Shown here piece by piece: positions 24,709 through 29,428 of a stretch of DNA of 64,000 nucleotides. Under the pieces are notes generated by a model. It had not been told where the DNA came from. It did not search any database and saw only the letters and a program-made list of their open reading frames with translations. The first letter of the stretch is position 1, and each line of letters opens with the position of its first letter. Position numbers and translations under genes: made by a program. The stretch comes from Henriciella sp. (GTDB lineage: Bacteria; Pseudomonadota; Alphaproteobacteria; Caulobacterales; Hyphomonadaceae), in NCBI RefSeq assembly GCF_029936995.1, contig NZ_JAPYRE010000003.1:372001-436000 (forward strand), read 5' to 3'.

Positions 24709-25740
24709 TTAGAGAAATAGCTTCGTGAACTCACGTGGCTTGCGCTTCTTCCATTCCCCCTTATGCCAGGAAGCAGACGCCAGCAGTGGTATAACCGTAC
24801 TGGCTTCCGCAAAGACCATCTGCTCATGCACAGTCTGTACCTTACCCCAGCTCGCGGCCTCCTTGAGCGTGGAAGACGAGCAGGCCCCGTCGCGCGTATC
24901 CGCTACAGTGACCTGTACGGCATATTTGTGCATCTCAACTTCCTTGCCCAGGATCTCGGCACAGACCACGGTGTCCTGAACGAAGTTCTTGGGTACGCCA
25001 CCACCAACCATCAGCAATCCGGTCGCGCCAGCCTCGATCTTGATCTCGGTCAGTTCCCGGAAATCGGCGACGCTGTCGATGGACATGGAGTTGCCGGGGT
25101 TCTCCACCTGGTGCTTCACAAGGCCAAACCCAGCAGAACAGTCGGAAAAAGCCGGCACGAAGATCGGAACATTATGATCGTAGCAGGTCTCGATCAGCGA
25201 GTCGTGCTTCCTGGCATTCTGCTTTAACCATTTGCCCATCTCCCAGATGAATTCCCGGGAAGAATAGGGACGCCGTTCAAGGCTGTCGGCGATGTCCTTG
25301 ATGACATGATCGCAGGCCTGCAGCTCTTCTTCATCAATGAAGGTGTCGTAGATGCGATCAATGTAGAGATCGCGCAGAATATTGTCGTCGACCTGCTCGG
25401 GGGCCTGATAGTGCTTGTAGCCAAGGGCCTCAAAGAAATCCATGTCGACGATAGATGCGCCCGTCGCAACAATTGCATCCACCAGGCCATACTTTACCAG
25501 GTCACGGTAGACATGCATGCAGCCACCCGCAGACGTTGAGCCTGCAAGTGTCAGGATGATCGAGCAATCCTGATCCTCAAGCGCCATGTTGAAAATGTCT
25601 GTGGCACGCGCAAGGTCTCGTGAAGAGAATGACATCTTGCCCATAGCCTCGACAATCGGCCGGGCATCGAAGGATGTAATGTCAACATGCTCGACGGGCT
25701 TGCTGAGAAGCTCCGCCTTGCGGTTGGTGGTTTCAGCCAT
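24709..25740 (-). CDS. Deoxyhypusine synthase-like protein (probable homospermidine or related aminobutyl transferase)
   Basis: 343 residues from an ATG with GGAG nine bases upstream; MEFFP five codons earlier is the alternative. It carries deoxyhypusine-synthase blocks: ILTLAGSTSAGGC (NAD site), IVATGASIVDMDFFEALG, and the catalytic-lysine motif EAASWGKVQ (about Lys300). In eukaryotes and archaea this enzyme modifies eIF5A/aIF5A with the aminobutyl group of spermidine. Bacteria lack that substrate, so a free polyamine such as putrescine is the likely acceptor, giving homospermidine or spermidine. It lies 118 bases behind the ornithine decarboxylase gene and shares its terminator, which supports a polyamine role. 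Confidence 0.88.
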   Translation of the reverse strand: MAETTNRKAELLSKPVEHVDITSFDARPIVEAMGKMSFSSRDLARATDIFNMALEDQDCSIILTLAGSTSAGGCMHVYRDLVKYGLVDAIVATGASIVDMDFFEALGYKHYQAPEQVDDNILRDLYIDRIYDTFIDEEELQACDHVIKDIADSLERRPYSSREFIWEMGKWLKQNARKHDSLIETCYDHNVPIFVPAFSDCSAGFGLVKHQVENPGNSMSIDSVADFRELTEIKIEAGATGLLMVGGGVPKNFVQDTVVCAEILGKEVEMHKYAVQVTVADTRDGACSSSTLKEAASWGKVQTVHEQMVFAEASTVIPLLASASWHKGEWKKRKPREFTKLFL

Positions 25741-25858
25741 TGGGAAGAACTCCATATTCTGTGCAGGCCCTTCTAACGGGCGTCAGTAGAACGGTCCAGC
25801 CGACGTATCCAAGCCTGCTGGGCATCGAATTTTGCATTAAAGGATTATAGCTGGAGGC

Positions 25859-27046
25859 TTACGCCATGACAGCAACTGTGGTCTCGGACTGGAAGCCATT
25901 GAATTTGGATGCCAGCGCCTGACCGTAAGCACCGAGATGACAGATCTCGACCCAGTCGCCTTCAGAAATATCATCCGGAAGCTCAAACGGGCCTTCCATC
26001 ACATCCAGGCTATCACAGGTAGGTCCGAAGAAACGGAATGGTGTGCATTTTCCCACTTGGCGGGGAGTTGTGCGGTGCAGCTTCACGGGGAATTTCCAGG
26101 CGCACTGTGCGGCATCAAAAAGCGACCCATAACTGCCGTCATTGAGATAGAGGTCTGAGCCTTTGCGAAGCTCGACCCGTGCAAGAGTGGAGCCTCCCTG
26201 AGCACATAGCGCGCGGCCTGGCTCACCGAGAACCTGGATACCGTCAAAACCGTAATCAGCCAGTGATGAGCGTATGGCCGAGAAATAGTCTCCCATCGGC
26301 TGCGGACGCATGCCGGGATAGGCAACCGGAAAACCGCCACCGCAATCGATGGAATCAATGTCTACACCTGCGTCATTCACGATAGTGCGTGCCCAGGCGA
26401 GGGCCCGGCCATATTCCGTCGTGTTCAGGCATTGAGAACCAACATGAAAGGTGAGGCCGAGCATGGCGACATGCGGACGTGCGGCTTTTATGAGGTCAGT
26501 GGCTTCATCACGGCTCGCACCGAACTTCCCAGAGAGCGGCATAACGGCATCTCCCTTCGGAAGGGCCAACCGGACATGCAGGTTCAGGTCACGTGCATAA
26601 CCGGTTTCTTCCAGCAGCTTGTAGAGCTCGTCAGCACAATCGAATGAGAAATCACGTACACCTTCGGCATAGGCATGGCGAATAGCAGCGCGTGATTTGA
26701 CCGGATGCATGAAATACAGCTCAGCGGAAGGAAGTATGGATTTGACCAGATCAACCTCACGCGTAGAGGCCACATCGAAACAACGAACGCCTGATGTCCA
26801 CAGTGTCATGAGGACGGCCGGATGTGGGTTCGCCTTTACTGCGTAGAGGACTTTACCGGGAAAGCCTGTCAGAAAGGTGCGGGCCGCCGCGGCGATCCGT
26901 TTTGGATACAGGACATAGATCGCATCATCGCCCTCATAGGCCTGCAGCACGTCATCAATGCTGACAAAAGCCGGCAAGCCGGAGCGCGTTGTTGAATCTG
27001 GAAGAATGGCGGGCCGCGCAAGGAGCGCGTGATCTGACTTGAACAT
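25859..27046 (-). CDS. Ornithine decarboxylase (alanine-racemase-fold, group IV)
   Basis: 395 residues. VLYAVKANPHP holds the PLP lysine (about Lys71), GGGFPVAYPG and EPGRALCA bind the cofactor phosphate, and FGPTCDSLDVM near residue 335 contains the active-site cysteine. Ornithine or lysine decarboxylation is the family reaction; ornithine to putrescine is most likely given the polyamine-type neighbour. The ATG has no Shine-Dalgarno sequence within the expected distance, and in-frame TAA seven codons upstream leaves no other normal start. A long structured leader with a small ORF precedes it, implying regulated translation or transcription. Confidence 0.92.
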   Translation of the reverse strand: MFKSDHALLARPAILPDSTTRSGLPAFVSIDDVLQAYEGDDAIYVLYPKRIAAAARTFLTGFPGKVLYAVKANPHPAVLMTLWTSGVRCFDVASTREVDLVKSILPSAELYFMHPVKSRAAIRHAYAEGVRDFSFDCADELYKLLEETGYARDLNLHVRLALPKGDAVMPLSGKFGASRDEATDLIKAARPHVAMLGLTFHVGSQCLNTTEYGRALAWARTIVNDAGVDIDSIDCGGGFPVAYPGMRPQPMGDYFSAIRSSLADYGFDGIQVLGEPGRALCAQGGSTLARVELRKGSDLYLNDGSYGSLFDAAQCAWKFPVKLHRTTPRQVGKCTPFRFFGPTCDSLDVMEGPFELPDDISEGDWVEICHLGAYGQALASKFNGFQSETTVAVMA

Positions 27047-27068
27047 GGCGGGAATTCGATTGACTTAT

Positions 27069-27084
27069 CTGACCTTTCGGTCAG
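27069..27084 (-). repeat. GNRA-type hairpin ahead of ornithine decarboxylase
   Basis: Six-pair stem CTGACC/GGTCAG closed by GAAA, a stable tetraloop, ending 22 bases before the decarboxylase ATG. Its arms duplicate those of the hairpin at 27307-27323. Confidence 0.8.
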
Positions 27085-27149
27085 TGAACTCATTGACTGC
27101 GTAGTCCACTAACGAACTACACGCGGCAGGGTTCGGCGGGCAATGCCCG

Positions 27150-27305
27150 CTACGGCCTTATGAGTTCCGCAATAGCGGCCAGGTAATCCCCGAACTTGCG
27201 GTCATAGTAGTTGTAAAGGCCAGTATCAGACGCAACGTCCTTACAGACCCGCGGCCTCGCGGGAGCGAACTTGTTCGGTGTCATCCAAGTATCCTCGGCA
27301 TGCAT
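27150..27305 (-). CDS. Leader ORF upstream of ornithine decarboxylase (51 residues)
   Basis: ATG with GGAGG six bases upstream, an ideal ribosome-binding site. The product has a tyrosine-rich middle (GLYNYYDRKFGDY, about 29-41) and ends AELIRP followed by TAG. It matches no family I recognise. Position, strand, strong translation signals and a hairpin starting at the stop codon suggest a regulatory leader peptide sensing ornithine or a polyamine, analogous in role (not sequence) to the SpeFL and TnaC arrest peptides; a C-terminal proline at the stop is a feature of TnaC. An independent small protein is the alternative. Confidence 0.6.
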   Translation of the reverse strand: MHAEDTWMTPNKFAPARPRVCKDVASDTGLYNYYDRKFGDYLAAIAELIRP

Positions 27306-27306
27306 A

Positions 27307-27323
27307 ACTGACCTCCGGTCAGT
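27307..27323 (-). repeat. Hairpin containing the leader-ORF ribosome-binding site
   Basis: Perfect seven-pair ACTGACC/GGTCAGT with loop GGA. GGAGG, the Shine-Dalgarno box of the leader ORF, occupies the loop and the start of the descending arm, so folding would hide it. Confidence 0.75.
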
Positions 27324-27425
27324 GATGAAGTGAAGACAGTTGGGCTCACCCGTACTAACGCCGCTAAGGCGCGTCGTAGCTCGCTTACTTGTCGAGCTGC
27401 GAAATATGCAAATATGTCCCTTGGA

Positions 27426-28586
27426 TCAAGAGTTTTTTTTGCGGTTTAGTGCATCGAAGCCCTGTTCAAGGTCTGCTCGAAGATCTTCAACATTCTCAAG
27501 CCCGGCGTGAAGTCTGATCAAGCGTCCCTGTTTCTGTTTCGTCCAGTCAGAAGAAAGTCTTGTCAGTTGTTCATCACAAGGAATGAGGAGGCTCTCAAAA
27601 CCTCCCCATGAAAAGCCGAGCTTGAAGAGCTCCAGCGCATCGATAAAGGCGTCGACATGCTCTTCTTCAGGTGCGTCCAGAATGAATGCGAAAAGACCGG
27701 AACTGCCTGAAAAATCCCGTCTCCATAAGGCATGGTCGGGATGTGAGGACAGGGCGGGGTGAATAACGGCGTTGACTGCCGCATGATCTTCAAGCCACTG
27801 TGCAAGGCTTATTGCGCTCGCTTCATGTTGAGTAAGCCGCGTAAAAAGGGTCCGTGTGCCTCTCAGGGCACTATACGCTTCTTCTGGACCGATCGAGATA
27901 CCCCAGTCATCTGTGAGCTCGCCTATCTCTCGCGCAACGTCAGGGTCGTTGCTCATGACAGCTCCGCCAAAAGCATCAGCGTGTCCTACAACATATTTTG
28001 TGAGCGCCTGAACCGACACATCCACACCGATGTTGAGCGGCTGGTGGAATATGCCTGCCGACCAGGTATTGTCCATAATTGTGCGGACACCTTGGTTTTG
28101 CGCCAAGTCTACTATTGCCGGAGTGTCGCTAATTTCAAATGTGAGCGAGCCGGGCGCTTCCAGGAATAGGGCCTTCACCGTTTCATCCAGCCTGTCCTCA
28201 ATATCTGTAATGTTCCTGGGGTCGAAGCGCACACAATCGACTCCCATGCGCTTTAGGCGGCGTTCGCAAAAACGGCGGGTCGGACCGTAGACAGAATCGG
28301 AGATCAGGACCTTGTCTCCTGCCTTTACGAGAGAAGCGACCGCCACTGCGCAAGCGCTAAGGCCAGAGGGGGTTAGCGTCGCATACTTTGCGCCTTCCAG
28401 ATCGCAGAGCGCTGCTTCTAGCTCTCTCTGTACCGATAAACCCATACGCCCATAACCAGGTTTGCGGGAATATAAGGCTTCACGATCGGGCAGGATAACA
28501 GTTGAGGCCCGCTCTACAGGAGGATTCACAGTCCTGCGGCCCGGCGATCCGGCCCGGTTATGTATGAGGCGTGTATTTCGCTTCAT
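27426..28586 (-). CDS. metC: Cystathionine beta-lyase (Cys/Met metabolism PLP enzyme)
   Basis: 386 residues from the ATG overlapping the sseA stop (ATGA); an upstream ATG at 28637 lies within sseA. RPGYGRMGLSVQRELE-like N-terminal segment, MDNTWSAGIFHQPL, and the PLP-lysine motif VQALTKYVVGHADAFGG identify the Cys/Met PLP family. Proteobacterial MetC cleaves cystathionine to homocysteine, pyruvate and ammonia. The start VNPPVERASTVILPD fits MetC better than gamma-synthases. Last gene of the cysK-sseA-metC sulfur operon. Confidence 0.9.
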   Translation of the reverse strand: MKRNTRLIHNRAGSPGRRTVNPPVERASTVILPDREALYSRKPGYGRMGLSVQRELEAALCDLEGAKYATLTPSGLSACAVAVASLVKAGDKVLISDSVYGPTRRFCERRLKRMGVDCVRFDPRNITDIEDRLDETVKALFLEAPGSLTFEISDTPAIVDLAQNQGVRTIMDNTWSAGIFHQPLNIGVDVSVQALTKYVVGHADAFGGAVMSNDPDVAREIGELTDDWGISIGPEEAYSALRGTRTLFTRLTQHEASAISLAQWLEDHAAVNAVIHPALSSHPDHALWRRDFSGSSGLFAFILDAPEEEHVDAFIDALELFKLGFSWGGFESLLIPCDEQLTRLSSDWTKQKQGRLIRLHAGLENVEDLRADLEQGFDALNRKKNS

Positions 28587-29428
28587 GTCTTCCAAACTTC
28601 TACCGGGTTTTTCTCTCCACGCCCCCATTCGGACCATGATCCATCATAGATGGCCACCTCCCAGTTCCCGAGCTCCGCCAATGCAAGGGCAATTATCGCA
28701 GCAGACACACCCGAGCCGCAGCTCGCGATTGCTGGAGAAGAGGCATAGGGCCTAACGATCCCATCCAAATGAACCTTATCAAGCAATCTGCCGTCCTCAC
28801 GGACGAGCTCGCTTGCAGGCACATTCATGCTGCCCGGAATATGTCCCGGTTTCAACTCTCGCCGGGGCTCCGGTTTTCGGCCGGCGAAACGGTCAGCTGG
28901 CCGTGCATCCAGGACAGGGGGGCGCTTCATTGTAAGCGTGTCAGCAACCTGATCAGCAGATACAACAAGCTCGGGCTTTGGGGCCGCAGTGAAATGAGCT
29001 GCGGCCTCAGGGGCGGTTGCCCCGGATTCAGTTTCACCTCCTGACTCCAGCCAAGCCTGTAAACCGCCGTTCAGCACAGACACGTTTTCATGTCCCATTG
29101 TCCGGAACATCCACCAGACACGCGCTGAAGCAAAAAAGTTATTGCAATCATAGACAACTACATGCGTGTCGCCGCCAATTCCCATCTCCTCAACTGAGGC
29201 AGTAAATATCTCTGGTCCTGGCATCATGTGAGGCAGATCACTGCTACTGTCTGCAATCACATCTATGTCAAAAAACTGCGCGCCCGGAATATGGCGACGG
29301 TCATATGCAGCACGGCCAGCATCGGGCTCGGCAACCCAGGCTGGAAACCAGCTTCCATCGAGAATGCGCACGTCACTGGCTGACTTGTTGGCTTGTAGCC
29401 AGTCTGCTGAAACGAGCGGCGAGGGCAT
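28583..29428 (-). CDS. sseA: 3-mercaptopyruvate sulfurtransferase (tandem rhodanese)
   Basis: 281 residues with two rhodanese domains. The first is non-catalytic (VVYDCNNFFASARVWWMFR, about 92-110); the second carries the active-site loop CGSGVSA (about 239-245), typical of mercaptopyruvate sulfurtransferase rather than thiosulfate:cyanide rhodanese (CRxGx). It transfers sulfane sulfur from 3-mercaptopyruvate to thiol acceptors. It starts four bases after cysK and overlaps metC. Confidence 0.94.
   Translation of the reverse strand: MPSPLVSADWLQANKSASDVRILDGSWFPAWVAEPDAGRAAYDRRHIPGAQFFDIDVIADSSSDLPHMMPGPEIFTASVEEMGIGGDTHVVVYDCNNFFASARVWWMFRTMGHENVSVLNGGLQAWLESGGETESGATAPEAAAHFTAAPKPELVVSADQVADTLTMKRPPVLDARPADRFAGRKPEPRRELKPGHIPGSMNVPASELVREDGRLLDKVHLDGIVRPYASSPAIASCGSGVSAAIIALALAELGNWEVAIYDGSWSEWGRGEKNPVEVWKT

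Follow-up and report, generated by a model that had tools for sequence, protein, structure and literature searches.

The window, a 64,000-nt stretch of the genome of a Henriciella species from a group of marine bacteria, carries on its minus strand a decarboxylase gene (ODC; 25859-27046) whose product contains the Pfam domains PF02784 and PF00278. The solved structures nearest to it are lysine/ornithine and ornithine decarboxylases, and its substrate would accordingly be ornithine or lysine/ornithine. Decarboxylases of this Henriciella type have the alanine-racemase fold and are not of the enterobacterial type. Downstream of the ODC follows, likewise on the minus strand, a deoxyhypusine-synthase-like gene (24709-25755; NCBIfam NF002699 above cut-off, PF01916). 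Judged from spacing and strand, it likely encodes a polyamine enzyme within the same operon, and its position beside the ODC fits polyamine synthesis. The NCBIfam name of this gene is 1,9-bis(guanidino)-5-aza-nonane synthase, and its product may yield homospermidine or another polyamine. A cystathionine beta-lyase-like gene (27426-28637) lies on the other flank. The interval in between (27047-27425) is occupied by a leader which extends from the -35 region to just ahead of the ODC start and whose features are all on the minus strand. Its putative promoter (27401-27429) consists of a -35 element TTGATC (27429-27424), a spacer of 17 nt and a -10 element TATTTC (27406-27401). In our comparison, CTTGA and the -10 region are kept in 20 leaders. 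A strict sigma-70 scan did not report this promoter; both the promoter and the transcript start, placed near GACA at about 27393, are thus proposed on the basis of conservation.

The transcript would begin with a 5' RNA domain (GACAAGTAAGCGAGCTACGACG..CGTTAGTACGGGTGAGC; 27344-27393, minus strand; core AAGCGAGCUAC) that is nearly invariant among 27 Henriciella genomes, with a mean pairwise difference of 0.065-0.095 compared to 0.48 in the 8 nt just upstream. Over the conserved parts between transcript start and leader ATG, genomes differ by 0.03 to 0.10 per site, the comparison value at third codon positions of the peptide core described below being 0.41. The domain includes a hairpin (27378-27353) with both-sided changes at four pairs. 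It is followed by a strand, CCAACTGTCTTC (27332-27343, minus strand; helix 4 of A3), whose partner in 25 of 25 distinct leaders is the segment 27296-27285, which comprises the Shine-Dalgarno sequence (SD) of a leader open reading frame together with its spacer (GAGGATACTTGG; minus strand). RNAalifold accordingly predicts a stem, CCAAcUGUCUUC/GAGGAUAcUUGG, which buries the leader SD and carries at its tip a further hairpin, hairpin 1 (27303-27327, minus strand; CTGACCGGAGGTCAG at 27308-27322), in addition to the upstream hairpin. In the 25 distinct leaders 98.8% of the cells are paired, a count that leans towards this structure since the alignment was fitted to it; when the partners are slid by 1-3 columns, pairing falls to 24-43%. 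Compensatory changes occur at ten pairs, four in the upstream hairpin and six of nine in hairpin 1 (98.7% of cells paired), a number matched by none of 500 shuffles. The SD-hiding stem itself is 100% paired and nearly invariant in Henriciella, 9 of its 11 pairs never varying, so that covariation within the genus neither proves nor refutes it; it is probable on grounds of invariance and predicted energy rather than covariation. The anti-SD energy of the leader SD is -5.6 to -5.9 in all 27 genomes, and its predicted unpaired probability is 0.01-0.07 in most leaders (about 0.04-0.12 averaged). A convincingly conserved alternative fold that would free the leader SD was not found. In summary, a conserved and covarying structured RNA in the 5' untranslated region overlaps an SD, as is expected of riboswitches.

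The leader ORF (MTPNKFAPARPRVCKDVASDTGLYNYYDRKFGDYLAAIAELIRP; 27150-27284, minus strand) comprises 44 codons in the window and 42 to 49 codons across Henriciella. The original prediction had described a 51-codon ORF; this frame is indeed present (27150-27305) and encodes a conserved peptide, but the conserved start codon lies seven codons further inside and in frame. The motif GAGGATACTTGGATG, invariant in 24 of 27 leaders (variants occur in L085, L087 and L088), provides the SD GAGGA 7 nt before the ATG at 27284-27282 and thereby marks 27284 as the conserved start. The outer start codon was considered as the conserved one and rejected: an NTG is kept at this position in relatives, which is explained by hairpin 1 pairing, as the first base of the NTG covaries with its hairpin partner (pair 82-104). 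In the window species the outer ATG is preceded by a strong SD, GGAGG, with an anti-SD pairing of -10.2 kcal/mol, the maximum of the genus (genus average -3.4). This ATG may thus be used too, although its strong SD is exceptional and peculiar to this species. The same GGAGG, located within hairpin 1, had been predicted to be the site hidden by that hairpin. Hairpin 1 does covary and forms part of the hiding structure, but the hidden SD is the GAGGA just outside it, with the upstream UGUCUUC strand as its partner.

The leader ORF is real and under coding selection, judged from dN/dS values of 0.19 and 0.12 in two subtypes compared to values above 1.3 in the other two frames, and is presumably translated. 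Amino-acid conservation is found in the C-terminal half, where a core of about 12 residues around DYxAAxAE is found in every leader of the family, while the N-terminal half is variable. The conserved core suggests slowing or stalling by the nascent chain in response to ornithine or a polyamine. We also considered that the ORF product is a small protein acting after its release, for example by binding the ODC. The amino-acid conservation of the C-terminal half would suit such a protein, as would the strict linkage to the ODC described below; given a variable N-terminal half, an SD embedded in a regulatory stem, and a position and structure more in keeping with a leader ORF, we regard this as very unlikely. 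A pause at rare codons was rejected as well, as the codons in question, AUA-AGG, are just moderately uncommon (8.3 and 6.2 per 1000).

Between the leader ORF and the ODC start, a second set of pairings connects the two cistrons. The sequence GTTCGG in the codons for KFG (27190-27195, minus strand) pairs with 27059-27054 beside the ODC start; in the 13 genomes of subtype A the partner of the corresponding AUUCGG is CCGAAU, some 8 nt ahead of the ODC AUG, with 98.7% of the cells paired and no double changes. Likewise, GAACTCAT in the last codons (AELI; 27160-27167, minus strand) pairs with ATGAGTTC at 27093-27086. The subtype A consensus of this helix, GAACUYAU with AURAGUUC, is 96.2% paired and includes one pair with a C-G to U-A double change. 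The final base of the leader stop codon is also the first of a GC hairpin (GCGGGCATTGCCCGC; 27136-27150, minus strand), five of whose six pairs are invariant in subtype A. This hairpin lacks a U-run and is thus not an intrinsic terminator; a terminator search found none in the leader. Hairpin 2 (CTGACCGAAAGGTCAG; 27069-27084, minus strand) follows, showing compensatory changes at three of five aligned pairs in subtype A; as originally described, it is capped by GAAA and stops precisely 22 nt short of the ODC ATG (27046). The absence of a ribosome-binding site at this ATG was also correctly predicted: its SD energy is +0.1 in the window, compared to an average of -2.0 at random positions. Most ODC genes of subtype A lack an SD, and in subtype B the complementarity is near-random. 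From leader stop to ODC AUG the distance is 74-116 nt. In subtype A the ODC start is predicted to be folded back on the leader ORF, and occupation of the ORF by ribosomes would raise the predicted unpaired fraction of its surroundings from 0.42 to 0.63; in subtype B the ODC start is hardly opened (0.39 to 0.46). Taken together, the pairing and openness of the ODC start, the absent SD and the lack of a terminator make coupling at the level of translation the likely second step of control.

A different role had been assigned to the two hairpins, namely that of a switch in which they swap partners, thereby freeing or trapping the sites of the leader ORF and the ODC. In the window, hairpin 2 and the inner part of hairpin 1 (27308-27322, loop GGA) do share identical CTGACC/GGTCAG arms, 238 nt apart from start to start. 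Cross-pairing between them is possible at -8.5 and -8.6 kcal/mol, and only 1 of 2000 leader shuffles produces a pair of hairpins with shared 6-nt arms, so that chance identity is rare. Across the genus, however, the exchange is not conserved. Cross-complementarity is kept in only 4 of 27 genomes, and the mean cross energy (-6.8 kcal/mol; self -15.8) is barely stronger than that between arms of different genomes (-5.7). The original prediction had named an alignment of homologous leaders as a check. Such an alignment confirms the conserved peptide and reveals arms that diverge independently among the 27 genomes, each hairpin covarying within itself. The identical arms in the window thus represent a local coincidence or a short-lived similarity, and we consider a switch by arm exchange hardly credible.

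The distribution of the leader was assessed with a DNA pattern derived from the 5' block and with a covariance model, R1, that spans transcript start to leader ATG (5' domain and following stem). Scanned over 84,980 named genomes, the pattern matched 20 records, named Henriciella, Hyphomonas or Hyphomonadaceae MAGs. Of 29 Henriciella genomes R1 matches 27, at scores from 78 to 139 bits, matches elsewhere being at noise level, and these 27 are exactly the genomes in which this ODC was found. By this comparison the leader is strictly associated with this ODC clade. A literature search found no published work on this leader in Hyphomonadaceae.

The peptide core also precedes related ODC genes (56-65% identical) from other genera of the order. 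Thirteen other genomes of the order, comprising other genera and families, have before the related ODC a leader ORF whose C-terminal core is related, e.g. SLQAQLGDTFLSSKHQDYQAAIAEPSSAKRA; in one of them (G432) two ATGs overlap at the ORF start, and the second was taken on grounds of similarity (MDFLVSL..SSKQQDYQANIAEHSSGKRA). Nine of these 13 sister leaders share the Henriciella 5' core (GACGAUAAAGCGAGCUAC vs GACAAGYAAGCGAGCUAC), 17 of 22 consensus positions being identical in register (0 of 20000 shuffles), and three of the nine show weak R1 matches at this spot. An SD-hiding stem of other sequence, GCCGGUAACGUCUUGG / GAUUGAGAGUU.UGGU, is predicted in all ten aligned sister leaders and shows weak covariation there. 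Two genomes (G044 and G038) have the peptide, and the 5' core is not seen in them. The leader L178 of G440, a divergent member of the 13, contains GCUACGACG..GUCAGUACGAGYGA as in Henriciella and a peptide nearer to other families; it is perhaps an intermediate form, and the peptide profile recognises it only because this sequence was included in the profile. The peptide profiles detected no convincing short ORF in two samples of the class (289 and 270 genomes); within the alphaproteobacterial samples searched they match only this ODC clade.

These data bear on the possibility that the 5' RNA is a metabolite-binding riboswitch which alone controls leader ORF and ODC, the peptide being a passive vehicle for the ribosome. 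The very low divergence of the 5' domain (the 0.065-0.095 given above), its conservation from the likely transcript start, the sequestered SD and a 5' core common to several families would all be expected of such an element. The peptide, however, is under amino-acid selection, and its core is kept in G044 and G038 where the 5' core is not seen, which argues that the peptide sequence matters; we therefore regard control by the RNA alone as unlikely.

Several known leaders resemble the one described here in part. The original prediction had pointed to the speF RNA motif. Like the speF RNA (RF00518) with ar45 (PMC1273637), the leader is long and structured, is conserved from near the transcription start and lies upstream of a COG0019-type decarboxylase in an alphaproteobacterium. 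A limited likeness to the canonical speF/ar45 sequence is apparent (AGCAACGACGGUGAG vs AGCUACGACG..GGUGAG). The speF covariance model, however, gave no match up to E=10 in the region 26980-27480 and none in the whole genome, although the same Rfam search finds speF in known carriers, and identity with speF was therefore rejected; no other Rfam family matched the leader either. Conversely, R1 yields nothing convincing at speF loci, and the peptide profiles detect no leader peptide of this family there. With R1 lacking a convincing match at speF/ar45, the relation is left as a resemblance. As a side observation, Rfam ar45, listed as a small RNA, immediately precedes the speF element in each of the three leaders inspected (L022, L023 and L025) and ends in a GGGCUUUUUU run in L023; ar45 may not be a gene of its own but the 5' portion of the speF leader, perhaps in the form of an attenuated transcript.

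The odc1 motif (uORF-25-1, PMC8632094) likewise precedes a decarboxylase gene in alphaproteobacteria, and it too hides a ribosome-binding site and contains a conserved upstream ORF. Its uORF comprises 11 codons and starts with a UUG 2 nt before the UUG of the ODC, one site being shared (PMC8632094), whereas the Henriciella leader ORF has 42-49 codons, an AUG and its own SD, and ends about 100 nt before the ODC. Given these differences in uORF length, start codons and spacing, the leader is not odc1 as described (PMC8632094). Apart from this, another type of conserved leader, CCGGCGGAC...GUACUAACGCCGGAUUGGGUU, precedes ODC homologs of about 45-53% identity in the same order (L126-L140); after it come a GGGG SD and start codons separated by 2 nt, e.g. 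GUG AA UUG. This other leader has no Rfam match and resembles the odc1 motif as published.

Similar in its mode of action would be the SpeFL/orf34 leader of enterobacterial speF, in which a short leader ORF likewise precedes an ornithine decarboxylase. In Salmonella, an inhibitory structure that covers speF is opened when orf34 is translated (PMC6386406), and SpeFL is described as an ornithine-sensing arrest peptide (PMC8429421). The Henriciella leader similarly places a conserved and, judged from selection, translated peptide before an ornithine decarboxylase. Unlike in SpeFL/orf34, the SD of its leader ORF is buried by the conserved 5' RNA, the decarboxylase lacks an SD, and the host is alphaproteobacterial; no likeness between the two peptides was noticed. 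Arrest during termination is described for SpeFL and TnaC (PMC8429421), and by this precedent the leader peptide might act on its own, stalling in response to ornithine or a polyamine at a fixed stop, with the 5' RNA tuning initiation. The C-terminal core is conserved in every leader of the family and many leaders end in Arg-Pro-stop or Arg-Ala-stop, the former being reminiscent of the TnaC leader of tnaCAB (PMC8429421), another case of control by a leader peptide. The Arg-Pro-stop ending is, however, not conserved in the family, and the resemblance to TnaC extends no further. The residues at the stop vary (IRP, IRA, IRR, EPI or RA before the stop codon), and so does the spacing between core and stop. 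Arrest at a single fixed terminal codon is therefore disfavored, and the specific case of Arg-Pro-stop was rejected because the endings differ. Since this explanation also leaves the strongest conservation, that of the 5' RNA, unaccounted for, we consider arrest alone possible but doubtful.

The best reading of the leader is a two-step control like that of SpeFL/orf34, which would represent a further family beside the known ODC leaders. We favor, with some reservation, a translational attenuator in which the RNA controls translation of the leader peptide and the translating, perhaps stalled, ribosome controls the ODC. In the first step, the 5' RNA and the stem CCAAcUGUCUUC/GAGGAUAcUUGG would hide the ribosome-binding site of the 44-codon leader peptide until a change in the 5' RNA, brought about by a ligand, a protein or folding kinetics, frees it. 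In the second step, a ribosome on the leader ORF would unfold the structure at the ORF end and between the cistrons beside the SD-less ODC start, so that synthesis of the ODC is coupled to that of the leader peptide. The nascent peptide might slow or stall this ribosome on ornithine or a polyamine and thus tune the second step. This two-step attenuator builds on features that emerge from genome comparison, namely selection on the leader ORF, covarying hairpins, an invariant stem, the association with one ODC clade and the absent ODC SD; to these it adds, conditionally, stem release, coupling, stalling, a ligand and a direction of control. The prediction of a clear opening of the ODC start in subtype A only speaks against it, as do the scant covariation of the sequestering stem, the failure to find a convincingly conserved fold that frees the leader SD, and the variable residues at the leader stop.

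More tentatively, the leader could be a tandem sensor, in which a new riboswitch-like class of RNA gates a new family of leader peptides that sense ornithine or a polyamine, and the stalled ribosome decides on ODC translation. Should this be true, two different sensors would act in series on one enzyme, and the RNA class would be present in several families of the order. As parts of the leader are compact and strongly conserved (an RNA core of 50 nt and a peptide core of about 12 residues), direct ligand tests are feasible, and since the family spans several genera, natural variants are available. SpeFL, odc1, the speF RNA and eukaryotic uORFs present the leaders of ornithine decarboxylases as a repeated evolutionary invention of translational sensors, to which the leader described here would add a further family, one that combines a conserved leader peptide with a conserved 5' RNA as its gate.
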